Part shown: positions 1,917-55,549 of the stretch, piece by piece
Layout of the letters: each line of letters starts with the position of its first letter
How positions within the stretch are numbered: the stretch's first letter is position 1
DNA from: Niameybacter massiliensis
GTDB lineage: Bacteria; Bacillota; Clostridia; Lachnospirales; Cellulosilyticaceae
Assembly (NCBI RefSeq): GCF_001282685.1
Contig: NZ_LN875035.1
Coordinates: 3,228,411 to 3,292,410 of the forward strand
Length of the DNA: 64,000 nucleotides
Direction: 5' to 3'
Notes under the pieces: generated by a model
Seen by the model: the letters and a program-made list of their open reading frames with translations, nothing else
Databases searched by the model: none
What the model was told of the DNA's origin: nothing
Translations under genes and position numbers: made by a program

Positions 1917-2204
1917 AAAAAAAGCTCCATCCCTAATAAAATATAAGGGACGAAGCTAAATCTCCGCGGTACCACCCTAGTTGACCTACTGGCCCAACTC
2001 TTTGGTTAGTATATCTAATAATATACTCTAGATGTAACGGTCTAGTCCCGTCTAAGCCTACTCATTACTTTTCGGTTAGAAACTCCAAGATGTTCTTCAT
2101 CTAAAACTTGTTACCAAATTTCCACCAACATTGGCTCTCTAAAAACGCTGTTTTAGACTACTCTTCTTTTCATCGTCTATTATCTATTCATACTGTAAAA
2201 TATG
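1917..2204 (-). promoter_or_regulatory. T-box riboswitch, Asn-specific, leader of asnS
   Basis: The conserved T-box AGGGTGGTACCGCGG lies on the minus strand at 1978-1964. It is followed by a terminator whose arms are AGCTTCGTCCCTTA and TTAGGGATGGAGCT and whose U-tract is at 1923-1917. Upstream are the AGAGAGCC and GTTGGTGGAA stem I signatures and the specifier loop GAAG-AAC-ATCTTGGAGTT. The specifier codon AAC is at 2094-2092, matching asparagine and therefore the asnS gene it controls. Uncharged tRNA-Asn pairing with the T-box would favour the antiterminator. Confidence 0.96.
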
Positions 2205-42547: not shown

Positions 42548-44140
42548 CTAACATATACTTGCTGCAATGAAAGCTTTAAAAAGAGGATGTGCTTTGTTTG
42601 GACGACTTTTGAACTCTGGATGGAACTGTACACCTACATAGAAATCATTCTCTGTGTATTCTACAGCTTCTACTAAGTAACCATCTGGTGATGTTCCTGT
42701 TATAGATAAACCACCCTCTTCTAATTGCTCTCTATAAGTATTATTGAATTCATAACGATGTCTATGTCTTTCTGAAATCATTGTTTCTTCGTAAGCTCTT
42801 GCCATCATAGAACCTTCTTGTATTTTACAAGGATATGCACCAAGTCTCATTGTGCCACCTTTAGCATGGCGTTCATATTGATCTTCCATTAAATCAATAA
42901 CTGGGTACTTAGCCTCTGCATCAAACTCACTAGATGTTGCCCCTTCATATCCTAATACATTTCTAGCATATTCCATTACTGCGATTTGCATACCTAAACA
43001 AATACCTAGGTAAGGAATATTATGTACTCTTGCGTAGTTAGCTGTTATAACTTTTCCTTCTACACCACGATTTCCAAATCCTCCTGGAATGAGGATACCA
43101 TCGCAACCTTCTAATACTTCTCTTACATTTTGTTCAGTAATGGTTTCTGAATCAATCCATTTAATTTGAACTTTTGCACTATTTGCATAGCCTGCATGAT
43201 AGAGTGCTTCTGCAACAGAAAGATAAGCATCATGTAATTTTACATATTTACCGACTAAGGCTATCGTTGTTTCTTTTGTACTTCCTTTAATTGTTTCTAT
43301 CAGTTGTTCCCACTCTGTAAGGTCTGGCAGTGGACATTCTAAGTGTAGTTCACGACATACAATACTTGAGAAGTTTTGTTCTTCTAACATCATAGGTGCC
43401 TCATATAGTACTGGCAACGTAATATTTTCAACAACACAATCCATTTTTACATTACAGAATAAGGCAATTTTTTGTTTGATTATTTGATCAATAGGCTCAT
43501 CACTACGTGTCACAATAATATCTGGCATAATCCCTAATGATTGAAGTTCTTTAACTGAATGTTGAGTTGGTTTTGATTTATGCTCATTAGATCCTTTAAT
43601 ATAAGGTACATAAGTGACATGAATAAAGAGGCAATTCTCTCGTCCGACTTCATGTGAAAGTTGACGAATTGCCTCCAAGAAAGGTAGACTTTCTATATCT
43701 CCAGTTGTTCCTCCTACTTCTGTAATGACAATATCGGCATCAGTTTTTTGCCCTACAGCATAAATAAATTCTCTTATTTCATTAGTAACATGAGGAATAA
43801 CCTGTACTGTCTCTCCTAAGTAGTCTCCATTACGTTCTTTATTTAATACACTCCAATAGACTTTACCTGTAGTTAAGTTAGAGTATTTATTTAAGTTTTC
43901 ATCTATAAATCTTTCATAGTGACCTAAATCTAAGTCTGCTTCTGCTCCATCTTCTGTGACATAGACTTCACCATGTTGATACGGACTCATTGTTCCTGGA
44001 TCAATATTAATATAGGGATCTAGCTTTTGTGCTGCTACCTTTAATCCTCTGGCTTTTAATAAGCGACCTAATGATGCTGCTGTGATACCTTTACCAAGTC
44101 CTGATACAACACCACCTGTTACGAAAATAAATTTTGTCAT
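42548..44140 (-). CDS. pyrG: CTP synthase
   Basis: A 530-residue enzyme that aminates UTP to CTP using glutamine. The N-terminal synthetase domain starts [31 protein letters not shown] and shows [29 protein letters not shown]. The C-terminal class I glutamine amidotransferase has its nucleophile in YLGICLGMQ and the His/Glu pair in [13 protein letters not shown]. Full length for the family. Its first four bases overlap the dapF stop. Being placed between two lysine/peptidoglycan-precursor genes is a little unusual and couples a nucleotide enzyme to diaminopimelate supply. Confidence 0.97.
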
Positions 44141-44976
44141 AGTTCTACTACCCCCTCGAAAGTCTTTCGTGCTGCGCCAGTCATATAAACTGTTTCATCT
44201 GAATAGGTGATTTTAAGTTCTCCACCACGTAATTTTACTGTTACTTCTTCATTTTGTTTACAAATGCCATTTAGTACAGCCCCTACTACAGTCGCACAAG
44301 CCCCTGTACCACATGCCAATGTTTCTCCACTTCCTCTTTCCCATACACGCATTTCTAAAGTATGTTCATCAATAACTCTTACGAATTCAGTATTTACTTG
44401 TTCTGGGAATATCTCTGCATGCTCAAAGAGTGGCCCTATTTTTTCAAGTTCCATAGAAGCTACTTCTTCTACAAAAATAATGCAGTGAGGGTTCCCCATA
44501 GATACACATGTTATAGGATAACTATTTCTTCCTATTTGAATATCTTGATGTACAATCTGCGTACCTTCAAGATTGACTGGAATAGCTTTAGGTTCAAGTA
44601 TTGGTGCCCCCATGTCTACGCACACAGATTGTACTTGCCCATTCTCGGCATTTAATTTCAAATGTTTGATACCGCTTAATGTTTCAATATCTATAGACTC
44701 TTTTGTAACTATCTTATGATCATATAAATACTTTCCAACACATCTAATGGCATTGCCACACATTTTACCTTCACTGCCATCTGTATTAAACATACGCATT
44801 TTTGCATCTGCTACATCTGAAGTACAAATAAGTACAATACCATCTCCACCTATTCCAAAGTGTCTATCGGATACTGTGATACTTACTTGTTCTGGATGTG
44901 GCAAATCCTCATTTAGGCAATCAAAATAAATATAATCATTGCCACAGCCTTCCATCTTAATAAATTTTCTTAGCAT
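44137..44976 (-). CDS. dapF: diaminopimelate epimerase
   Basis: A 279-residue PLP-independent racemase turning LL- into meso-diaminopimelate, the precursor of lysine and of the peptidoglycan cross-link. The two catalytic cysteines are C73 (KMCGNAIRC) and C222 ([11 protein letters not shown]). The pseudo-twofold repeat and the start [14 protein letters not shown] are typical. AGGAAG precedes the ATG at 44976. It is the first gene of the operon with pyrG and dapL, so the last two steps to meso-DAP are encoded together. Confidence 0.97.
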
Positions 44977-45021: not shown

Positions 45022-45591
45022 TTAACTTTCATAAACCTTTAATATACTCTCTGCAACATTTTTTCTAGTTGTTCGTCTATCCATGGCTTGCTTTTCTATA
45101 TATTTATGTGCCTGTTCTTCACTCATATTTAAATATTGTATAAGTGTACATTTTGCACGATCTACTAATCTAATTTCTTCAATCTTACTTTGTAATTTTA
45201 AGTTTTCCTTTTTAAGCCCCAACATACGTCGTCTAGAGGCTGTTACTAATTTTATTGCTTGGTAAAACAATGCTTTTCCAATAGGTTTTTCAACTATAAA
45301 TACACCATAGTCTTCTACCTTTAATGCGATATCATCTACTAGCTCATTCTTGACTAACATAATCACTCCAGCTGAAGTACGGTCAGTCACAAAGAATGCC
45401 AATTCATCTCCAAATTCATCTGTAAGTGGTGTATTAATAATAACCATTTCAAACTCACTTTGAGCCACTCTTCTCCTAGCTTCACTACCACTCCCGGCTG
45501 AAGTAATGTTATTCATTTGCCCAGCTTTAAGCAATTCCTCTAAAAGGGCTACTCCCTTTGGAGAACTTGACACAATGAGTACGTCTCCCAT
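45022..45591 (-). CDS. ANTAR-domain RNA-binding antiterminator (NasT/AmiR type)
   Basis: A 189-residue protein with a degenerate receiver-like domain (about 1-120) and a C-terminal ANTAR domain (about 125-185: RRRMLGLKKENLKLQSKIEEIRLVDRAKCTLIQYLNMSEEQAHKYIEKQAMDRRTTRKNVAESIL). ANTAR domains bind paired RNA hairpins and prevent transcription termination. The phosphorylation Asp region reads VIINTPLTDE, lacking the usual Asp of active receivers, so it may be regulated by another signal or partner. It is the last gene of the glutamate synthase/glutamine synthetase operon, 26 bases after glnA, which suggests control of nitrogen genes. The ATG at 45591 is preceded by AAAGGA; GTG at 45594 is an alternative. 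Confidence 0.9.
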   Translation of the reverse strand: MGDVLIVSSSPKGVALLEELLKAGQMNNITSAGSGSEARRRVAQSEFEMVIINTPLTDEFGDELAFFVTDRTSAGVIMLVKNELVDDIALKVEDYGVFIVEKPIGKALFYQAIKLVTASRRRMLGLKKENLKLQSKIEEIRLVDRAKCTLIQYLNMSEEQAHKYIEKQAMDRRTTRKNVAESILKVYES

Positions 45592-45620
45592 CACTCACCA
45601 TCCTTTCAACCTAGTCTATA

Positions 45621-46940
45621 CTAAACACGAGTAAAATAAGCCTCTTCCTCAGCCTGAAGCTGGTCCTTAGCACTTATAACTTGGTTATATTCCTCTTCTT
45701 TGATGGCGAGATATTTCTTTAAAGTAATCGGAGCTAAAACCTGTTTAACAAAATCACTTTTCTTGGCATACTCTAAAGCCTCTTTTAATGTACTTGGTAA
45801 TTGTTTAATGCCTTCTATTTTAGAAGGGTCCACTTCATAAAGATTATAATTTGTTGCGGGTTCTAGTGTTTTTTGTGCTTCCATACCTTCTAATCCAGCA
45901 TGGATAATTAAAGCAAATGCTATATAAGGATTACATGCTCCGTCTGCTGAACGTAATTCCATTCGTACGTATTCTCCTTGAGCTGCTGGAATACGAATAA
46001 GTTGAGAACGATTTTGATGAGACCATGTAACATACTTTGGTGCTTCATCTAGTCCTAGTCGTCTATAAGAATTGGTTAGTGGATTTAAGAATGCTGTAAT
46101 CTCTACAATTCTATCTAGTACACCTTGTATAAAACTTTCAGCTTCTTTAGAATGATTATTTTCATTATTTCTAAAGATATTTACACCATTTTTTGAAAGT
46201 GAAAGATTAATATGAAGCCCATTTCCACTTTTGTCTTCAAATGGCTTTGGCATAAATGAAGCAAATAATCCATTTTGTGCTGCCACACTCTTAACAACAG
46301 ATTTAAATGTAATCAGGTTATCTGCTGCTTGCAATGCATCACTATATTTAAAATCAATTTCATTTTGACCTGGCCCCTGCTCATGATGAGAACTCTCTGG
46401 TTGAATGCCCATCTCCTCTAATGTTAGACAAATCTCACGTCTCACATTTTCTCCACGATCAAAAGGTGCAATATCAAAGTATCCAGCTCGGTCATGTGGT
46501 TCTTTAGTTGGATAGCCTTTATCATTTAATTCAAAGAGATAAAATTCACATTCTGGACCAATCTTACATTGATACCCCATCGTTTCTGCTCTTTGTATTG
46601 CTTGCTTTAAGATGTTTCTTCCATCACCTTCAAAAGGCGTCCCATCAGGTTTCTTAATATCACAAAAAATTCTTATGACTCTTCCTTGTTGAGGACGCCA
46701 AGGTAAAATTGAAACAGTGGAAGCGTCAGGGAATAAAAATAAATCAGATTCCTCTACATTCATAAACCCTTTTACTGCTGAAGCATCAAAAGATATCCCA
46801 CTTTGAAAAGCACGTGGCAATTCACTGGCCATAATCGATACATTTTTTTGGTTACCTAATATATCACAAAAGGCTAACTTTACAAACTTCACATCATTTT
46901 CTTCAACAAATTGCAATACTTCATTTATTGTATATTCCAC
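45621..46940 (-). CDS. glnA: glutamine synthetase, type I
   Basis: A 439-residue dodecameric-type glutamine synthetase making glutamine from glutamate, ammonia and ATP. Recognisable motifs: FDASAVKGFMNVEESDLFLFPD, GPECEFYLF and HHEQGPGQNEIDFKY (metal and glutamate sites), the ATP loop MPKPFEDKSGNGLHINLSL, and the RIPAAQGEYVRMELRSADGACNPY segment. The E. coli-type adenylylation Tyr motif is not evident, as in Gram-positive GSI-alpha enzymes. I start at GTG 46940, seven bases after GGAGG; the upstream in-frame GTG (46955) is itself part of that ribosome site. The gene follows the glutamate synthase parts, giving a full GS-GOGAT operon. Confidence 0.96.
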   Translation of the reverse strand: MEYTINEVLQFVEENDVKFVKLAFCDILGNQKNVSIMASELPRAFQSGISFDASAVKGFMNVEESDLFLFPDASTVSILPWRPQQGRVIRIFCDIKKPDGTPFEGDGRNILKQAIQRAETMGYQCKIGPECEFYLFELNDKGYPTKEPHDRAGYFDIAPFDRGENVRREICLTLEEMGIQPESSHHEQGPGQNEIDFKYSDALQAADNLITFKSVVKSVAAQNGLFASFMPKPFEDKSGNGLHINLSLSKNGVNIFRNNENNHSKEAESFIQGVLDRIVEITAFLNPLTNSYRRLGLDEAPKYVTWSHQNRSQLIRIPAAQGEYVRMELRSADGACNPYIAFALIIHAGLEGMEAQKTLEPATNYNLYEVDPSKIEGIKQLPSTLKEALEYAKKSDFVKQVLAPITLKKYLAIKEEEYNQVISAKDQLQAEEEAYFTRV

Positions 46941-46991
46941 TTTTATCGCCTCCACTTATATGCATTCTTTTTATTATATTCCTAATGCTTA

Positions 46992-47714
46992 TTAGTTATG
47001 GGTATAGAGTTGTCTGTAAGGATTTTTTGTATCTGGTTCTAGTACATAGAAGTTCTTTGACCATACTTTTTCTTTATCTACATTAAATGTCTCACAAAAT
47101 GTTTCAACATCTTGCCTAATACCTTCTACGTCTTCTTCTGTCATCACTCTTGCTACAACTTGTTTTGGAAGGTCGGCTGGGAGCTTATCACAACGTAAGT
47201 AGATTTTGCCACCATGCATTCCTGTTCCACAAAAGTGTCCTACTGGAACTTCATCTTCACAGTTTAGCCCAAGCACTACAATGTTTCCTCCTGCTTGGTA
47301 TTCACCTAAGAAACTTCCTGCTTTTCCTCCTATTATAAGAAGAGGTTGTTTCTCCTTATAGGCTTTCATATGTATGCCCGCTCTATAACCAGCATTATCC
47401 CTTACATAAATTTTGCCACCACGCATAGCATATCCTGTGGCATCTCCAGCCGATCCATGAATACAAATAAGTCCTTCATTCATTGTATCTCCTGTAGCCT
47501 CTTGTGTATTTCCATATACCTCTATCACACAACCATCTAAATAGCTACCAAGTGCATTTCCTGGTGTACCTTTAATAATCAGATGTTTACCTGATAACCC
47601 ACTTGCTATATAACGCTGTCCTATACAATTATCTAATGCAATTGTATCTTCTTTATAATTCCTAATTTTATTATTTAAAGTTTGGAAGTGCATTGTTCCT
47701 ACATTAATGTTCAT
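46992..47714 (-). CDS. glutamate synthase GXGXG subunit (GltB domain 3)
   Basis: A 240-residue right-handed beta-helix protein equal to the C-terminal (alpha-3) domain of the large glutamate synthase subunit, here as a separate polypeptide. The repeating G-x-x-G-x-x-x-G pattern is plain: GKHLIIKGTPGNALGSYLDG, GSAGDATGYAMRGGKIYVRDNAGYRAG and GGKAGSFLGEYQAGGNIVVLG. In the fused enzyme this domain is structural and helps form the ammonia tunnel. TAGGAGG precedes the ATG, and the first 11 bases overlap the end of the FAD oxidoreductase gene. Confidence 0.93.
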   Translation of the reverse strand: MNINVGTMHFQTLNNKIRNYKEDTIALDNCIGQRYIASGLSGKHLIIKGTPGNALGSYLDGCVIEVYGNTQEATGDTMNEGLICIHGSAGDATGYAMRGGKIYVRDNAGYRAGIHMKAYKEKQPLLIIGGKAGSFLGEYQAGGNIVVLGLNCEDEVPVGHFCGTGMHGGKIYLRCDKLPADLPKQVVARVMTEEDVEGIRQDVETFCETFNVDKEKVWSKNFYVLEPDTKNPYRQLYTHN

Positions 47715-48942
47715 TTTTTCTTCCTCCTAACTTGTCATCTCTATAATTTCTTGAGAAGGCTATAAGCCCTGGTCTCTCTTTAAGAAGTTCAAAGTTAAGA
47801 CTACTAAGTGGAATTTGCTCTCTTATAATTGATGTATAAATTCCTGCACCTTCAACATCACCTAGCATCATAAAGCCCTTAAGTAAATCATCTTTTACAA
47901 TAAGCTTTTTGTAGTTATTTTCATCTTGGGTAATTATTTCTTCCCCTTCATAACTACCTGCACTTATTAAGTGTAATCCAAAAAATCCAATGGCATTCAT
48001 AGGAATAGCTTTATCAAACTTTTGCTTACCTAATGCCATATTAATCCCGGCACATTCACCTTGTCTATAGGCATTGGGTAAAATAGCCAGAATTTTTTGG
48101 TTACCATCTGTCAGATCTACACTCTCAGTACAATCCCCAGCAGCATAGATATTTTCTAAACTTGTTTGGCAGTATTCATCGAGGATAATCCCTCTATTTA
48201 CTCTGCCACCAGCTTGTTGTACAAGCTCTACATTGGGTCTTACCCCAACAGCTAAAACGAGAATATCAAATTCAACTGTTGTACCATCTTGGAAATAGGC
48301 TGTATGAGCATCTAACTTTTGAACTCCTGTACCTAATTTAAATTGTATATTATAATTCTCTAAATGCTTTTTTAAGCGTGCCCCACACTCCATATCAACA
48401 ATACTAGAAAGTACATGAGGTGCAATATCACATACGGTTAGGCTAGCTACCTTTTTTGAGATTGCTTCTGCACATTTAAGACCAATTAATCCAGCACCTA
48501 CAATGAGCACTTTACTTTTTTCGTTAATCTTTTCGCCTAAGGCTTTTGCAGAATCTAATGTCATAAATGTAAATTGATTTTCTACTTTTTCTAGTCCTTC
48601 AATAGTTGGAACAAATGGTCTTGATCCTGTTGCTACTAGTAACTTGTCATAGCCTATAACTTCTCCAGTTTGTGTAACAATTTCTTTCTTATCTGGATGA
48701 ATTTCTGTAACATAAGTTTCTAATTTTAATTGACAGTTCATTTCCTTATAGAAGTTATCATCTCGATACTTCATACGTTCTAAATCTGTTTTTCCTTGCA
48801 ATAGATAGGAAATGAGTGGTCTTGAATAAGTGTGATAAGCTTCATTTGATAAGACTACAATCTCACTGTTAGTATCTTGACTACGGATTCCCTCTATCCC
48901 TCCAATAGCAGCTGTAGAGTTTCCAATAATAACATATTTCAT
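47704..48942 (-). CDS. NAD(P)H/FAD oxidoreductase of the split glutamate synthase
   Basis: A 412-residue flavoprotein of the nitrite/rubredoxin reductase type. The first dinucleotide motif is KYVIIGNSTAAIGGIEG at the start (FAD) and the second SKVLIVGAGLIGLKCAEA near residue 150 (NAD(P)H). GDCTESVDL carries the FAD-ribityl Asp. The usual GltD small subunit is replaced here by this shorter protein, so it is the likely electron entry to the synthase through the adjacent ferredoxin. I start at ATG 48942, six bases after GAGGTG; a GTG at 48951 is possible. It lies five bases after the ferredoxin gene. Confidence 0.9.
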   Translation of the reverse strand: MKYVIIGNSTAAIGGIEGIRSQDTNSEIVVLSNEAYHTYSRPLISYLLQGKTDLERMKYRDDNFYKEMNCQLKLETYVTEIHPDKKEIVTQTGEVIGYDKLLVATGSRPFVPTIEGLEKVENQFTFMTLDSAKALGEKINEKSKVLIVGAGLIGLKCAEAISKKVASLTVCDIAPHVLSSIVDMECGARLKKHLENYNIQFKLGTGVQKLDAHTAYFQDGTTVEFDILVLAVGVRPNVELVQQAGGRVNRGIILDEYCQTSLENIYAAGDCTESVDLTDGNQKILAILPNAYRQGECAGINMALGKQKFDKAIPMNAIGFFGLHLISAGSYEGEEIITQDENNYKKLIVKDDLLKGFMMLGDVEGAGIYTSIIREQIPLSSLNFELLKERPGLIAFSRNYRDDKLGGRKNEH

Positions 48943-48947
48943 TCTAC

Positions 48948-49376
48948 TCACCTCTCTTCATATACAATCGCTTGATTAGGGCATCCTTTAACACATGCCG
49001 GTTCCCCACTTTGATTACCCATGCATAGTTCACACTTTTGAACAATCCCCTCTGCTGCCATCTTAACCGCGCCATATGGGCAAGATAAAATACATGTACA
49101 GCAACCAACACATTTGTTTTTGTCAACTGCAATAAGTCCATCTTTTTTTGTAAGCGCTCCCGTGATACACCCTTTTACGCAAAGTGGTTCCTCACAATGT
49201 CTACAAGATACTGCAAAGCAAACTTGATCTTTTTCTTCTATTTGAATGCGTGGTTGAACCGTTTTATTTTTAAGTGCTTTAACCATATCTTTTTCTACTG
49301 AGTTTGCAAAAGCACAGTAGTATTCACATAGATGACACCCTAAGCACCACTTTTCATTGACATAAACCCTTTTCAT
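48948..49376 (-). CDS. multi-cluster 4Fe-4S ferredoxin-like electron carrier
   Basis: A 142-residue iron-sulfur protein of the HycB/DMSO-reductase beta type. Four cysteine groups are seen: NEKWCLGCHLCEYYCAFA; CRHCEEPLCVKGCITGAL; NKCVGCCTCILSCPYGAV; and CELCMGNQSGEPACVKGCPNQAI. They could hold up to four 4Fe-4S clusters. It would carry electrons between the FAD oxidoreductase downstream and the FMN synthase upstream. I start at ATG 49376, five bases after GGGGGAG, because the longer start at 49400 lacks a ribosome site; the gene then begins ten bases after the synthase stop. Confidence 0.92.
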   Translation of the reverse strand: MKRVYVNEKWCLGCHLCEYYCAFANSVEKDMVKALKNKTVQPRIQIEEKDQVCFAVSCRHCEEPLCVKGCITGALTKKDGLIAVDKNKCVGCCTCILSCPYGAVKMAAEGIVQKCELCMGNQSGEPACVKGCPNQAIVYEER

Positions 49377-49386
49377 CGTTCTCCCC

Positions 49387-50892
49387 CTATTCTCCTGCAT
49401 GTTGAATGCCTAAGATCTCTAATTCTTTCTCTGTTAAGCCAATTCCACGTAGCATTAAGCGGTTACCTTTTAGCGCTTCAATAGAGTTAATTCCCATACC
49501 GCCCATCATTTCTTTAATTTCATGTTCCCATGCTGAAACTAAGTTGACTAAACGTTTATATCCGATTTCTGGATTAAGTCGTTTAACTAATTCTGGTACT
49601 TGTGTTGCAATACCCCAGTTACATTTACCGCCATGGCAACTTCTACATAAGTGGCACCCCAGTGCTAAAAGTGCACTTGTTGCAATATAAACAGCATCTG
49701 CTCCTAAAGCTATTGCCTTAACGATATCTGCACTATTTCTAATGCTTCCACCAACTACGATAGATACTTCATTACGAATGCCTTCTTCTCTAAGTCTTGC
49801 ATCTACACTTGCTAAAGCAAGTTCAATAGGAATACCTACGTTGTCACGAATACGAGTAGGTGCTGCTCCTGTACCACCTTTAAATCCATCAATTGCAATA
49901 ATATCTGCACCACTTCGTGCGACACCACTTGCAATAGCTGCTACATTGTGTACAGCTGCAATCTTAACTATAACTGGCTTTGTATAGTTTGAAGCTTCTT
50001 TTAAGGAATACACTAACTGTCTTAAATCTTCTATTGAGTAGATATCATGATGTGGTGCTGGTGATATGGCATCTGATCCTTCTGGGATCATACGTGTTTT
50101 AGAAATATCCCCCACGATTTTAGCCCCTGGCAAGTGACCACCGATACCTGGTTTTGCACCTTGACCCATTTTGATTTCTATTGCAGCGCCTGCTTCTAAG
50201 TAATCTTTGTGTACGCCAAAACGTCCTGATGCTACCTGTACAATGGTATTAGGTCCGTATTGATAGAAATCTTCATGTAACCCACCTTCACCAGTGTTAT
50301 AAAGTATTCCAAGTTCTGTTGCTGCACGTGCAAGACTTTCGTGAGCATTGTAGCTAATTGAACCATATGACATAGCTGAAAACATAATAGGCACTGAAAG
50401 TTCTATTTGAGGTGGCAAGTTATTTTTAATCTCACCGTTTTCATCTCTTTCAATAGTTGTTGGCTTTTTACCTAAAAATACTTTTGTCTCCATTGGCTCT
50501 CTTAATGGGTCAATGGAAGGGTTAGTAACCTGTGAAGCATTGATAAGCATTTTATCCCAGTAAATTGGATAAGGCTTTGGATTTCCCATAGAAGAAAGAA
50601 GTACGCCGCCTGTATCTGCCTGACGATAAACCTCATTAATTGTTTCTCCAGTCCAATGGGCATTATGTTTAAAGGTATGATCTGTTTTAACGATTTTAAG
50701 TGCTTTAGTTGGGCAAAGACATACGCAACGATGACAGTTCACACACTTTGCATCATCGGCCATAAGACATTGATTTTCTTCATCATAGCTGTGTACACCA
50801 TTTGCACATTGTCTTACGCAAACTTTACAACCGATACAACGTTTCTCATTTCTTACGACTTCATATTCAGGATATATATAATTAATAGCCAT
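49387..50892 (-). CDS. glutamate synthase central (FMN, Fe-S) subunit (GltB domain 2)
   Basis: A 501-residue protein with two N-terminal 4Fe-4S motifs (RCIGCKVCVRQC and CVNCHRCVCLCP, residues 18-62), followed by the FMN-binding glutamate synthase barrel. Barrel motifs: SYGSISYNAHESLARAA, NTGEGG, EIKMGQGAKPGIGGHLPG, PHHDIYSIEDLRQLV, ADIIAIDGFKGGTGAAP and the 3Fe-4S cysteine region LALGCHLCRSCHGGKCNWG. It makes glutamate from 2-oxoglutarate and ammonia. The added ferredoxin domain marks the archaeal-type split glutamate synthase. TAATG overlap with the amidase gene upstream. Confidence 0.95.
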   Translation of the reverse strand: MAINYIYPEYEVVRNEKRCIGCKVCVRQCANGVHSYDEENQCLMADDAKCVNCHRCVCLCPTKALKIVKTDHTFKHNAHWTGETINEVYRQADTGGVLLSSMGNPKPYPIYWDKMLINASQVTNPSIDPLREPMETKVFLGKKPTTIERDENGEIKNNLPPQIELSVPIMFSAMSYGSISYNAHESLARAATELGILYNTGEGGLHEDFYQYGPNTIVQVASGRFGVHKDYLEAGAAIEIKMGQGAKPGIGGHLPGAKIVGDISKTRMIPEGSDAISPAPHHDIYSIEDLRQLVYSLKEASNYTKPVIVKIAAVHNVAAIASGVARSGADIIAIDGFKGGTGAAPTRIRDNVGIPIELALASVDARLREEGIRNEVSIVVGGSIRNSADIVKAIALGADAVYIATSALLALGCHLCRSCHGGKCNWGIATQVPELVKRLNPEIGYKRLVNLVSAWEHEIKEMMGGMGINSIEALKGNRLMLRGIGLTEKELEILGIQHAGE

Positions 50893-51983
50893 TAAGCTTC
50901 ACTCCCTTCTAGTGTTACAATAACTGGCTCTCCACCTTTTGGTGTCCATACTTTGTCTAATTCTGGCTCTATAACGCGGATTGCACATTCTTCACTGGCA
51001 AAATAAACTTTATCATCCTTTTCACCAATAACCATAGAGCGAAGTTTAAGCCTGTCATTAATAGCCATTAAGCCGCCTTCAAATCCTACTAAAAGTGAAA
51101 ATGGACCTGTAATTAATAAACTTGAAAATACATTTCTTAAGTATGTAAGTCTTTCTTTTTCTGTAGAACTTTGGCTATCTATTGTGCTCCAAAATGGTGC
51201 TGCAATAACCTCTGCAACCTCTTCAAGCTTAAGACCTTGCTTACGACTTAAGAAGTCAATAATATAGGTAATAACTTCAGTATCTGTTAAGAGATTACAC
51301 TTATAGCCAAACATCTCTATAAAGCGTCTATTCGCATCATAAGATGAGATTTCACCGTTATGCACTACTGATAAATCAAGCATTGCAAATGGATGGGCTC
51401 CTCCCCACCAACCTGGTGTATTGGTTGGATATCTACCATGTGCAGTCCAAGAATACCCTTCGTATTCTTCTAATCTGAAGAATCTTCCCACATCTTCTGG
51501 GAATCCTACTGCCTTAAATACGCCCATATTCTTACCACTTGAAAATACGTACGCTCCTTCTATTTCTGTGTTAATTTTAATTACACAGCGTACTACAAAT
51601 TCTTGTTCATCAAGCTGACTATCTTTAAGTTTTGTTGGTAATGGATTCACAAAATATCTCCACATAAGAGGCTCATTTGTAATTTTAGGTGTTTTGTGAA
51701 TCGGAATTTTTGATAAGTTCACAAGGTCAAAATGTCTTTCCAAAAATCTTTCGCACTCTACCCTTGCATTTTGATCTTCATAGAACAAATGGAAAGCATA
51801 GAGGTCCTTGTATTCAGGGTAAATTCCATATCCTGCAAACCCTCCTCCTAAACCATTAGAACGATCATGCATAGTTTCTATTGATTTTATAATAGCTTCT
51901 CCACTCATTAACTTCCCGCTTTTAGAAAAAATACCAGATATGGCACAACCTGAAGGTATTCTAATTTCACCCTCTTTTTTCAT
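50892..51983 (-). CDS. glutamate synthase class II glutamine amidotransferase subunit (GltB domain 1)
   Basis: A 363-residue Ntn amidohydrolase that releases ammonia from glutamine for the synthase subunit. The nucleophile is C13 in IPSGCAISGIF, so a 12-residue propeptide must be removed; this short leader is usual in the split enzymes. HGRYPTNTPGWWGGAHPF and VVHNGEISSYDANRRF are the class II glutaminase loops. I start at ATG 51983, six bases after GGAGGGA; a TTG at 51989 is in frame. It is the first gene of the seven-gene nitrogen operon that ends with the ANTAR protein. Confidence 0.94.
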   Translation of the reverse strand: MKKEGEIRIPSGCAISGIFSKSGKLMSGEAIIKSIETMHDRSNGLGGGFAGYGIYPEYKDLYAFHLFYEDQNARVECERFLERHFDLVNLSKIPIHKTPKITNEPLMWRYFVNPLPTKLKDSQLDEQEFVVRCVIKINTEIEGAYVFSSGKNMGVFKAVGFPEDVGRFFRLEEYEGYSWTAHGRYPTNTPGWWGGAHPFAMLDLSVVHNGEISSYDANRRFIEMFGYKCNLLTDTEVITYIIDFLSRKQGLKLEEVAEVIAAPFWSTIDSQSSTEKERLTYLRNVFSSLLITGPFSLLVGFEGGLMAINDRLKLRSMVIGEKDDKVYFASEECAIRVIEPELDKVWTPKGGEPVIVTLEGSEA

Positions 51984-52009
51984 TTCCAATCCCTCCTTCG
52001 ATAAAATGC

Positions 52010-52069
52010 AAAAAAGGCGCTCATCAAAGTCAAAAACCCCTGTGGTTTTTTCATTTGATGAACGCCTTT
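52010..52069 (-). promoter_or_regulatory. terminator-like branched hairpin at the 5' end of the glutamate synthase operon transcript
   Basis: AAAGGCG-C-TCATCAAA (52013-52028) pairs with TTTGATGA-A-CGCCTTT (52054-52069). Inside is a second stem (AAAAACC/GGTTTTT with a loop read ACAGG on the minus strand). On the minus strand the structure is followed by TTTTTTGCATTTT. It begins only about six bases after the predicted transcription start, so it would block the operon unless antiterminated. An attractive target for the ANTAR protein, though that is inference. Confidence 0.7.
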
Positions 52070-52081
52070 GTTCATATCTAA

Positions 52082-52110
52082 ATTGTATTTTATTGACCTA
52101 AAATTGTCAA
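52082..52110 (-). promoter_or_regulatory. sigma-A promoter of the glutamate synthase / glnA operon
   Basis: TTGACA at 52110-52105 and TACAAT at 52087-52082 are 17 bases apart; the transcription start should be near 52075. Confidence 0.85.
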
Positions 52111-52243
52111 GATAATTTTCCTTTAAAATGATTTTATAAGTTGTACAACTTGCATTTTCATTTCAAGAACAAGTTTAAATCCCTACTTATACTTATCTAA
52201 AGATATTTTTAAAAATTAAATTGCATTTTTCCAAAAATTATAG

Positions 52244-52273
52244 TTGACTTTTGATTTGGTTCGGTCATATACT
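52244..52273 (+). promoter_or_regulatory. promoter of asnA
   Basis: TTGACT at 52244-52249 and TATACT at 52268-52273 are 18 bases apart. The start of transcription should be near 52280. The 130 bases between this and the divergent promoter are AT-rich and hold no gene. Confidence 0.75.
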
Positions 52274-52288
52274 GTTATTAACATCAGC

Positions 52289-52334
52289 AAAGGCGCTGTA
52301 GGTTATTTATTGACCTACAGCGCCTTTTTTTATT
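52289..52334 (+). promoter_or_regulatory. terminator-like hairpin at the 5' end of the asnA transcript
   Basis: AAAGGCGCTGTAGGT pairs perfectly with ACCTACAGCGCCTTT over a nine-base loop and is followed by TTTTTTTATTTT. It starts about nine bases after the predicted transcription start and lies just ahead of the asnA ribosome site, matching the design of the divergent operon. The AAAGGCG opening is shared by both hairpins. Confidence 0.75.
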
Positions 52335-52358
52335 TTCCAAATCGAAAGGGGTATGTCT

Positions 52359-53366
52359 ATGAGTAAAATTTTTGTTCCAAAAGGTTATAGTCCACAATTA
52401 TCACTTTATGAAACCCAAACGGCTATTGGGTTCATCAAAAGAACTTTTGAAGATCGTTTAACTAAGGCTTTAAATTTAAAACGTGTCTCTGCACCTTTAT
52501 TTGTTGATCCAAACACTGGTATTAATGATGACTTAAATGGTGTTGAACGTCCGGTTGCATTTGATATTGCTGAAACAGGCACAACTGCTCAAGTGGTACA
52601 TTCTCTTGCAAAATGGAAACGCTATGCACTTCATCAATATGGTTTTAGTGCTGGAGAAGGTCTCTATACAGATATGAATGCTATTAGACGTGATGAAGAA
52701 ATGTCAAATTTACATTCCATCTATGTCGATCAATGGGATTGGGAAAAAATCATTACTGCTGCTACGCGTAACGAAGCTTACTTAAAAGAAACAGTTACTG
52801 CTATTGTAGGTGCAATGTGTGATACTTTAGACGCTCTCAAAACATCTTATCCAAGTATTACAACAACACTTAGTAGAGATATTACTTTCGTTACAACACA
52901 AGAATTAGAAGATTTATATCCTAACCTCACTCCTAAAGAAAGAGAAAATGCTTTTGTTAAAGAGCACCCTACTACTTTTGTTATGCAAGTTGGTGACCTC
53001 TTAGCCTCTGGTGAAAAACATGATGGTAGAGCCCCTGATTATGATGATTGGAAATTAAATGGAGATATCGTATTCTGGAATGATGTATTAGAAATGGCAT
53101 TTGAAGTTTCTTCTATGGGAATCCGTGTAGATGCTGAAAGCTTAGATAGCCAACTTATCAAAGCTGGTTGTGATGACCGTCGTAAATTCCTCTTCCATCA
53201 AATGCTTCTTAACAATGAATTACCACTTACTATGGGTGGTGGTATTGGCCAATCTCGCCTTTGTATGCTTCTTTTAGGTAAAGCGCATATTGGAGAAGTT
53301 CAATCTTCTATTTGGGATGATGCTACAAAAGTTTTCTGTAATGCGAACGATATTGTATTGCTTTAA
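52359..53366 (+). CDS. asnA: aspartate-ammonia ligase (asparagine synthetase A)
   Basis: A 335-residue enzyme making asparagine from aspartate, ammonia and ATP; related to class II aminoacyl-tRNA synthetases. Family motifs: IGFIKRTFEDRLTKALNLKRVSAPLF near the start, RPVAFDI, HSLAKWKRYALHQYGFSAGEGLYTDMNAIRRDE, YVDQWDWE and MTMGGGIGQSRLCMLLLGKAHIGEVQ-like sequence at the end. Length agrees with E. coli AsnA. I prefer ATG 52359, eight bases after AAAGGGG; ATG 52353 is too close to it. Ammonia use fits its place beside the glutamine synthetases. No T-box is present here, unlike for asnS. Confidence 0.96.
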   Translation: MSKIFVPKGYSPQLSLYETQTAIGFIKRTFEDRLTKALNLKRVSAPLFVDPNTGINDDLNGVERPVAFDIAETGTTAQVVHSLAKWKRYALHQYGFSAGEGLYTDMNAIRRDEEMSNLHSIYVDQWDWEKIITAATRNEAYLKETVTAIVGAMCDTLDALKTSYPSITTTLSRDITFVTTQELEDLYPNLTPKERENAFVKEHPTTFVMQVGDLLASGEKHDGRAPDYDDWKLNGDIVFWNDVLEMAFEVSSMGIRVDAESLDSQLIKAGCDDRRKFLFHQMLLNNELPLTMGGGIGQSRLCMLLLGKAHIGEVQSSIWDDATKVFCNANDIVLL

Positions 53367-53458: not shown

Positions 53459-55549
53459 ATGAAAAATGTAACAGAACTTTTTGGAAGTATGGTATTCAAT
53501 GACCATGTAATGCGTGAGCGACTTCCAAAGTCTACCTATAAAGCTTTAAAAAATTGTATCAATCAAGGTATTAGCTTAGATTTATCTATTGCCAATATTG
53601 TCGCTAACGCTATGAAAGATTGGGCTATCGAAAAAGGTGCTACACACTTTACACACTGGTTCCAACCTATGACAGGTATCACTGCTGAAAAACATGATAG
53701 TTTTATTTCACCTACTTCAGATGGTTCTATTATCATGGAGTTCTCTGGTAAAGAACTGATTAAAGGTGAGCCCGATGCCTCAAGTTTCCCATCAGGTGGT
53801 TTAAGAGCTACTTTCGAAGCACGTGGTTATACAGCTTGGGATCCTACTTCATTTGCCTTTATCAAAGATAATACACTATGTATTCCTACTGCTTTTTGCT
53901 CATATGGCGGAGAAGCGCTTGATAAAAAAACACCTCTTCTTCGTTCTATGTCAGCACTTAATAAAGAAGCCATTCGTATTCTTAAACTTTTTGGTCATGA
54001 AGATGTAGAAAAAGTGCTTACTACAGTAGGTCCAGAACAAGAATACTTCCTCGTTGATAAAGACCTTTTTGCAAAACGTAAAGATCTTATTTTCTGTGGA
54101 CGTACTCTATTTGGTGCTAAGCCTCCAAAAGGTCAAGAATTAGATGATCACTACTTTGGTACGATCAAACCAAAAGTTGCTGCATTTATGGAAGAACTAG
54201 ATGAAGAGCTTTGGAAATTAGGTATTTTAGCAAAAACTGAGCATAATGAAGTTGCACCTGGTCAACATGAACTTGCTCCTATCTTCACAACTTCTAATAT
54301 CTCTACCGATCACAATCAGCTTACAATGGAAATCATGCAAAAAGTTGCAAAACGTCATGGTCTTGTTTGCCTTCTTCATGAAAAACCATTTGCAGGTGTA
54401 AACGGTAGTGGTAAACACAACAACTGGTCTTTAAGTACAGATACGGGTATCAATCTTCTTGAACCTGGCAAATCACCTGAAGAAAATGCCCAGTTCCTTC
54501 TCTTCTTAGCAGCTGTTGTTAAAGCTGTAGATGAGTACCAAGACCTTCTTCGCCTTTCCGTAGCAAGTGCTGGTAACGATCATAGACTTGGTGCAAATGA
54601 AGCACCTCCTGCTATCGTTTCTATGTTCTTAGGTGAAGAGCTTACTGCTATTTTAGAATCCATTGAAAAAGATAGTAGCTATGACAAAAAAGCTGCTGCT
54701 TATATGGAAATTGGTGTAGACGTTCTACCTCGTTTCAAGAAGGATACCACTGACCGTAACCGTACTTCACCATTTGCTTTTACTGGTAACAAGTTTGAAT
54801 TCCGTATGCTTGGTTCAGCGCTTTCTATCTCTGGCCCTAACGTTATTCTTAATACAATTGTTGCCGAAGCGTTATCTTGTTTTGCTGACCAACTTGAAAG
54901 TTGCGATAACTTCCAAGCTACTATTCAATCTATCATCAAATCAACACTTCAAGAACACAAACGTATTATCTTCAATGGTAACAACTATGCGGATGCATGG
55001 GTTAAAGAAGCTGAGCATCGTGGTTTACTCAACCTTAAGTCTACTCCAGATGCACTTCCTTATTTCATTGCTCCTAAAAACATTGAGCTCTTTACAAAAC
55101 ATAAGATTTTCACAGAGTCAGAAATTTACTCTCGTTACGAAATCTTATTAGAAGGCTATTCTAAAGTGCTTCATATCGAATCACTTACTATGATAGAGAT
55201 GGTTAAGAAAGATATTATTCCTGCTGTAGTAAGCTATGTTGATCATCTTACTCAAGCTGCACTACACAAACGTGCACTTCTATCTACAACATGTTCATGT
55301 GACTTAGAAGAGGGACTTATCAATGAACTTTCTTCTTTATCTGGATGCCTTTACAAAAAGCTCAATGCTTTAGATGAATGCTTAATTTCATCAACTTTTG
55401 CTAATGAGCAAGAAAAAGCTAACTACTACAAAGATTCTGTTTTCCCAGCTATGCAAGAATTACGTGCTGTAGCTGATGAAATCGAAACCTTAGTAGGACG
55501 CACCTACTGGCCATACCCAACTTATGGCGATTTATTATTCAGTCTTTAA
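53459..55549 (+). CDS. glnN: glutamine synthetase, type III
   Basis: A 696-residue GSIII enzyme, a second and unrelated-length glutamine synthetase in the locus. GSIII proteins are about 700 residues and hexameric/dodecameric. Hallmarks: [88 protein letters not shown] and [25 protein letters not shown] precedes the ATG. It lies 92 bases after asnA on the same strand, without a terminator between, so the two are probably cotranscribed. Type III enzymes are typical of Bacteroides, cyanobacteria and Clostridia, and are often induced when ammonia is scarce. Confidence 0.96.

Follow-up and report, generated by a model that had tools for sequence, protein, structure and literature searches.

At the locus analysed here, the glutamate synthase operon of Niameybacter massiliensis and the asnA-glnN transcription unit are arranged back to back, with a gap at positions 51984-52358 between them (Table 1; the window denotes the whole 64,000-nucleotide stretch of DNA analysed). 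Besides the glutamate synthase subunits, the former operon encodes a type I glutamine synthetase and a NitR-like response regulator, which is the only ANTAR protein in the genome to exceed the Pfam cut-off; a second match stayed below it. The original prediction had taken the ANTAR gene for the last gene of this operon. While its membership in the operon holds, its terminal position may not, given that dapF lies in close proximity downstream; the terminator scan listed nothing between nitR and dapF.

Table 1. Features of the window, ordered by position
Feature	Position	Strand	Remarks
T-box leader	1943-2182	-	127.8 bits
dapF	44137-44976		45 bases after nitR
Glutamate synthase operon, gltB...glnA-nitR	45022-51989	-	
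NitR-like response regulator with ANTAR domain	45022-45594	-	ANTAR 59.7 bits, Pfam cut-off 27.3
GS-I, glnA	45621-46955	-	
GXGXG	46992-47714	-	
NAD(P)H oxidoreductase	47704-48951	-	
Fe-S protein	48948-49400	-	
FMN glutamate synthase	49387-50892	-	
GATase	50892-51989	-	RBS-spaced ATG at 51983-51981
U tract of minus-strand terminator	52015-52010	-	
Intrinsic terminator stem AAAGGCG...CGCCTTT	52013-52069	-	excludes antiterminator
Antiterminator hairpin AUGAAC[AAAGGC]GUUCAU	52058-52075	-	6 bp, hexaloop A1/G4; excludes terminator
Sigma-A-type promoter, glutamate synthase operon, TTGACA-17-TACAAT	52082-52110	-	11/12 consensus matches
Promoter, asnA-glnN, TTGACT-18-TATACT	52244-52273	+	10/12 consensus matches
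Antiterminator hairpin CAGC[AAAGGC]GCUG	52285-52298	+	4 bp, hexaloop A1/G4; excludes terminator
Intrinsic terminator stem, then T tract	52289-52327	+	17 pairs; excludes antiterminator
asnA, aspartate-ammonia ligase	52353-53366	+	TIGR00669 over cut-off
glnN, type III glutamine synthetase	53459-55549	+	GSIII_N

Anatomy of the divergent leaders

As originally predicted, both strands of the gap carry a promoter that leads directly into a strong terminator hairpin; the promoters of both leaders are defined by consensus matches and the start sites are predicted ones. Within a 551-base region, we counted five promoter-like matches (2.0 expected) and one terminator-like match (0.2 expected). That this terminator scan caught the plus-strand hairpin alone is due to an internal loop in its minus-strand counterpart. 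Folding of the minus leader (97 nt) and the plus leader (83 nt) gave z-scores of -5.7 and -6.3, respectively, with none of 200 dinucleotide shuffles being as stable in either case, and both 5'-end stems amount to about -30 kcal/mol or lower. No Rfam family exceeded its gathering threshold in the promoter-terminator region, and sub-threshold matches (E up to 5) were discarded as chance-like.

The observation that both hairpins open with AAAGGCG was borne out. The AAAGGC therein forms, besides, the A1/G4 hexaloop (A and G at positions 1 and 4) of an alternative hairpin, which overlaps the 5' arm of the terminator and excludes its formation. The loop ACAGG, proposed initially as the recognition element, proved to be wrong: it is the 5-base tip loop of one terminator and not common to aligned relatives, and the conserved hexaloop is AAAGGC. 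When folding of the growing transcript was followed (values printed at every third length), the AAAGGC hairpin reached pairing probabilities of 0.94-0.99 at nascent lengths of 21-39 nt on the asnA side and of 0.98-1.00 at 18-54 nt on the gltB side; in both leaders, the hexaloop hairpin formed first and was then displaced by the terminator.

Leaders of this type also occur elsewhere in the genome. The pattern AAAGGCGN{22,52}CGCCTTT was found at four places in the 4.57 Mb, compared with 0 for a control pattern, namely in the two window leaders, in the second unit of a leader in front of amt, and in an AAAGGCG terminator at a gene end that is devoid of the flanking stem. The amt gene encodes an ammonium transporter fused to a PII domain (PF00909, PF00543), and its leader consists of one promoter followed by two consecutive hexaloop-terminator units, with the hexaloops ~51 nt apart and each having its own terminator. 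As in both window leaders, the A1/G4 hexaloop sits on a stem of at least 3 bp. A fourth leader (L097) emerged as a weaker match (E 0.0022) to the covariance model R1 introduced below; its reading as an ordinary terminator was dropped when re-check revealed a tandem leader of an amino-acid ABC transporter operon. Here, a promoter matching the consensus at 11 of 12 positions is followed by GTTGC[AAAGGT]GCAAT and an associated terminator at a distance of 49 nt from the -10 box, outside the usual spacing range, and 87 nt further by ATTAAC[AAAGGC]GTTAGT, again with a terminator of its own. Downstream lie the gene for an amino-acid-type solute-binding protein (PF00497) and a permease-like frame (permease by eye). 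The solute-binding protein gene (L097:505-1380, minus strand) is read as two frames, one of 194 and one of 71 codons, and may therefore be broken or mis-assembled.

Among the further R1 matches in this genome, we dropped the above gene-end terminator, three reverse-strand readings, and two matches with no stem or a 1-bp stem. One additional match, with a 4-bp stem, precedes an AraC-like gene without a strong promoter nearby. The genome also harbours eutB (G000:C11:727182-728483), the only eut gene searched for. With a single ANTAR protein over the cut-off, the eut genes are probably without an EutV of their own.

Distribution and covariation of the element in Clostridia

To find related loci, we searched with the ANTAR protein and kept 80 loci of 125 relatives. 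Together with the window and the amt and gene-end loci of N. massiliensis, these amounted to ~1.2 Mb, which were scanned for a stem of at least 4 bp, an A1NNG4NN loop, and an overlapping terminator. Eighteen matches were obtained, 17 of which have AAAGGC-like loops (AAAGGC, AAGGGC, AAAGGT, AACGGC); the 15 other base combinations for the first and fourth loop positions yielded 0-14 matches each. A promoter-like sequence (9-12 of 12) stands 11-23 nt before the loop in 16 of these 17, that of L066:138 being doubtful, and it is missing only from the second unit of the amt leader.

From 16 of the 17 sites, we built R1, with the terminator as part of the structure, and ran it on 291 Clostridia genomes including that of N. 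massiliensis, applying the stricter filters used for searches of more than 40 genomes. All 128 matches listed, stemming from 81 genomes, were examined. Seventy-four of these precede a gene resembling the glnN, asnA, glutamate synthase GATase or glnA of the window, or amt, and a stem of at least 3 bp is present in 72. The two stemless ones and one stemmed match (L130, minus strand) are reverse-strand readings of other units. Demanding a stem of at least 3 bp, a promoter score of at least 9, and a gap of at most 28 left 84 promoter-plus-element sites, which are spread over 61 genomes and lie mostly in front of glnN, amt, asnA, gltB or glnA. The comparison of leaders across related genomes, suggested earlier as a check, hence placed the element before nitrogen genes well beyond the present species. 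Divergent elements between a glutamate synthase gene and asnA or glnN recurred as well (L005, L019, L066, G020, G109), making the back-to-back layout common to several genomes. Among laboratory strains, Sedimentibacter hydroxybenzoicus DSM 7310 carries the system.

Pairing of the antiterminator stem (P2) is 100% in the 16-row seed alignment by construction, as its rows were picked for the stem. We therefore set these rows aside and judged covariation on matches not selected in this way. R1 scores the two stem sides independently, so that pairing is not built into its matches, and it favours CAGC and GCTG. Across the 74 nitrogen-gene matches, which comprise 30 different arm pairs, stem pairs 2-5 are formed in 97, 99, 88 and 66%, compared with 85, 86, 52 and 47% after shuffling of partners; none of 1000 shuffles was as high as the observed values, with kinship ignored. 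Pair 1 is an almost invariant C-G and little informative, and pairs 6-8 are not clearly above chance. The arms vary (CAGC/GCTG, GAAC/GTTC, GCAC/GTGT, CGGC/GCCG and others) around a nearly fixed hexaloop. The terminator pairs also covary, as seen in 16 rows picked for having both hairpins.

A gene-anchored test was performed without R1; its loop pattern was chosen after the family had been seen, and one glnN and one other leader near a contig edge were omitted. The element was present in 13/14 glnN leaders, the exception being a glnN that comes second in an asnA operon, as well as in 8/14 gltB, 2/2 asnA and 1/1 amt leaders. For glnA, the count was 8/62, some of them by chance and several not of this type. 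Other genes of the same clusters gave 0/14, 0/14, 0/13, 2/17 and 3/76. The element was absent from the glnA leaders of R. flavefaciens-type loci and from 6 of the 14 gltB leaders.

Additional targets, not all of which have a promoter within the above limits, comprise large glutamate synthases at two loci, NifH (G210; TIGR01287 over cut-off), a NifB-like protein (G086; TIGR01290, 315 bits versus a cut-off of 343.65), a GlnQ-like ABC ATPase below its family cut-off, a PucR regulator, and DapF. The hexaloop-terminator units before nifH and the nifB-like gene suggest, by their sequence, that some regulons include nitrogenase. In the DapF case (G251), a promoter and a GAAC[AAAGGC]GTTC unit stand in front of dapF itself. 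Similar units were noticed in front of genes for a LuxR-type regulator, an ABC permease, and a BMP-like lipoprotein (the latter by eye).

In one genus (g27, family f20), the loci L183, L185, L189, L191, L192, L193 and L239-L248 display a promoter, GAGC[AAAGGC]GCUC and a terminator with no gene behind them, the hexaloop reading AAAGAC instead of AAAGGC once. What follows is a conserved non-coding stretch of ~200 nt with a closing helix (by eye), a terminator of its own, and an anti-Shine-Dalgarno segment, CTTTCTCCTTTACAAAACAATTACCAAAC. This segment was detected in 10 of 12 g27 genomes (nine exact, one with a single mismatch), and in all 10 it is preceded by the hexaloop unit and a 12-of-12 promoter. 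We consider this stretch a candidate for an ANTAR-controlled sRNA. No Rfam match was obtained for it in the six loci searched, and a target search with the anti-Shine-Dalgarno segment, allowing up to 3 mismatches, did not rise above a reversed-pattern control.

A single hexaloop near the predicted 5' end and its probable regulator

With the predicted start set 6 nt after the -10 box, the hexaloop lies close to the RNA 5' end: in 69/84 sites, a distance of 11-16 nt lies between the end of the -10 box and the hexaloop, and 0-6 nt separate the predicted start from the antiterminator stem in 67/84. A recruitment hairpin (P1) upstream of P2, which characterizes dual-hexaloop leaders, is lacking. 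A P1-like hairpin inside the predicted transcript was seen at one of the 84 sites (L188 in G109; a 3-bp A1/G4 hairpin), and none was found in the 45 nt preceding the hexaloops of asnA and gltB and the first one of amt, or in L097 from the -10 box to the first hexaloop. As a positive control, the same kind of scan applied to seven same-class eut loci returned P1+P2 leaders, three in L269 and L273 and one in L271, plus a match in L274 that looks like chance; the method is thus able to see P1. With no P1 present, one hexaloop near the RNA 5' end would do the work. Units before gltB have a median length of 68 nt (n = 11), compared with 51, 51 and 52 nt before glnN, amt and asnA, and the longer gltB units would give NitR more time.

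The element is commonest in genomes with a close relative of the ANTAR protein. Sites are present in 46/80 genomes with a close NitR (E < 1e-25, a cut of our own choice), in 10/67 with a weaker ANTAR match, and in 5/144 with none (Fisher p = 3.5e-19 for close NitR versus the rest, uncorrected for phylogeny). In two genomes of the second group (G064, G231), the leader, GS-I and the ANTAR gene stand in line within about 2 kb; for the five genomes of the third group, MAG gaps are possible. Conversely, 34 of the 80 genomes with a close NitR have no site by the criteria used, implying that NitR has other targets, that the element is degenerate, or that sites were missed.

In an alignment of 81 NitR relatives, the receiver acceptor position is occupied by Asn in 68 and by Asp in 6; the first position of the acidic pair is Ser in 65, and the second is mostly Ser, Ala, Gly or Asn (the four commonest residues). 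The N. massiliensis protein has Asn at the receiver Asp position and Ser-Ser at the acidic pair, and so differs from EutV in both the phospho-acceptor and the N-terminal acidic pair. EutV-like phosphorylation is therefore unlikely for most of these proteins. Within the ANTAR domain, HKYIEKQAM is invariant in 81/81. We mapped the RNA contacts of EutV by ungapped alignment to 6wsh, using the residue list in section 21 of PMC8934654. Lys149, Glu160 and Met172 are matched in 81/81 relatives and Arg175 in 80; Lys143 and Lys147 correspond to Arg or Lys in 80 and 81, respectively, and Asn173 to Asn or Asp in 79. Tyr164 is replaced by His throughout (81/81), as it is in AmiR, and Arg142, Arg168 and Arg177 are unmatched.

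Probable attenuation of nitrogen assimilation genes and its alternatives

Judged from sequence and comparative data, these leaders are in all likelihood single-hexaloop attenuators of nitrogen assimilation that are controlled by a NitR-type ANTAR protein with positive autoregulation. The first ~20 bases of each RNA would fold into the small AAAGGC hexaloop hairpin. Left unheld, this hairpin would be invaded in loop and stem by the downstream arm, and the resulting intrinsic terminator would halt the polymerase some 50-70 bases after the start. Under nitrogen scarcity, the ANTAR protein would bind the hexaloop and hold the small hairpin closed, allowing the polymerase to read into gltB...glnA-nitR, asnA-glnN, amt, and the amino-acid ABC transporter operon. 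We infer NitR binding, antitermination, and nitrogen as the signal; the feedback would be positive, more ANTAR protein giving more readthrough, because nitR sits in the controlled operon. Attenuation by the operon's own ANTAR protein through an unusually short 5'-end design, as the original prediction had it, is well supported by the comparative evidence.

The same prediction offered hairpins that protect the mRNA as an alternative. RNase-blocking hairpins are very stable 5'-end stems with a short 5' single strand, and the present leaders fit this description. However, neither mere stabilisation nor constitutive, regulator-independent partial terminators that fix the level of expression would account for the fixed A1/G4 hexaloop, its co-occurrence with the ANTAR gene, or the covariation seen in an arm that the terminator leaves unpaired, which renders this explanation very improbable; a side effect of the hairpins on mRNA stability may still exist. 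Likewise, a palindrome at the start site throughout a regulon, with tight promoter spacing, would resemble a DNA operator of a nitrogen regulator. Yet, operators usually keep their arms and vary the spacer, whereas here the arms show compensatory changes around an almost constant 6-base spacer. Besides, a terminator overlaps in the examined sites (R1 demands one), and we give the operator almost no credence. Could the switch be real, but read by an RNA-binding factor other than the NitR-like protein? The five genomes with sites but without an ANTAR match, and the 34 with a close NitR but without sites, would be in line with this; still, the loop obeys the A1/G4 rule of ANTAR targets (PMC3369931), and the one ANTAR protein above cut-off in this genome is encoded in the controlled operon, so that we regard such a factor as highly improbable.

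A further possibility is dual-hexaloop attenuation of the eut type with P1 overlooked, be it that transcription starts further upstream or that P1 is supplied otherwise. AmiR, NasR and EutV share the dual hairpin, as described in PMC3369931, and according to PMC8934654 both eut hexaloops are needed in vivo in E. faecalis, meaning that one might not suffice. The P1-like hairpin of L188 points in the same direction, as do the two hexaloops of the amt and L097 leaders, though these are ~51 and 87 nt apart and have their own terminators. On the other hand, the 2022 structure (PMC8934654) has one EutV dimer binding one hexaloop, with a recruitment role offered for the other. The 0-6 nt between start and stem at most sites, and the failure to find P1 upstream of the asnA, gltB, first amt and L097 hexaloops with a scan that does see eut pairs, make an overlooked P1 very unlikely.

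Single-hexaloop NitR-type attenuation has relatives among known ANTAR systems. It shares with EutV and Enterococcus eut (PMC3369931, 2012; PMC8934654) an ANTAR response regulator and leaders of nitrogen-related genes in which an A1/G4 hexaloop on a stem of at least 3 bp excludes an intrinsic terminator. It differs from them in the lack of P1, in the position of the hexaloop, usually at the RNA 5' end and with little variation in its distance from the -10 box, and in a receiver without the phospho-Asp in 75/81 NitR relatives. NasR and AmiR also combine an ANTAR domain with leader hairpins (PMC3369931), but have other sensor domains and other targets. Another relative is NitR of Clostridium saccharobutylicum, an ANTAR protein which a passage of PMC6316151, citing Stutz 2007, credits with antitermination that induces the GS/GOGAT genes on nitrogen limitation. 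The gene neighbourhood expected of that system, an ANTAR gene within the GS/GOGAT cluster, is present here. Antitermination was likewise suggested for a C. thermocellum ANTAR protein (a passage of PMC4676874). The general mechanism has thus been known or proposed already. The element, its spread, and the wider target set (amt, asnA, glnN, nifH and the candidate sRNA) go beyond the NitR passage in PMC6316151. ANTAR substrates were also placed before glutamate synthase genes of Desulfotomaculum reducens and nitrogenase genes of Pelobacter, i.e. in nitrogen regulons like the present one, yet with a dual-hairpin covariance model (PMC3369931), whereas here there is one hairpin per terminator. Neither a single-hexaloop 5'-end ANTAR element nor its spread or target set was encountered in the literature searched, a scope that excluded most subscription papers and the original NitR paper.

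We would tentatively go one step further, while harbouring more doubt than confidence about the following as a whole: the leaders might represent a separate ANTAR class, with a non-phosphorylated pseudo-receiver protein, one 5'-end hexaloop and no recruitment hairpin. The ANTAR protein would probably be loaded during promoter escape, which would explain why the distance to the -10 box is nearly constant, and the class would serve a clostridial nitrogen regulon that includes, in one genus, a dedicated anti-Shine-Dalgarno small RNA.

The current model holds that ANTAR antitermination in vivo requires two hexaloops, and the widespread single-hexaloop leaders make this directly testable with templates of 60-70 bases. 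In addition, the NitR system suggests that the signal enters by a route other than phosphorylation. Together, the leaders provide a genome-readable nitrogen regulon of Clostridia that comprises ammonium uptake, GS, GOGAT, AsnA and, sometimes, nitrogenase.
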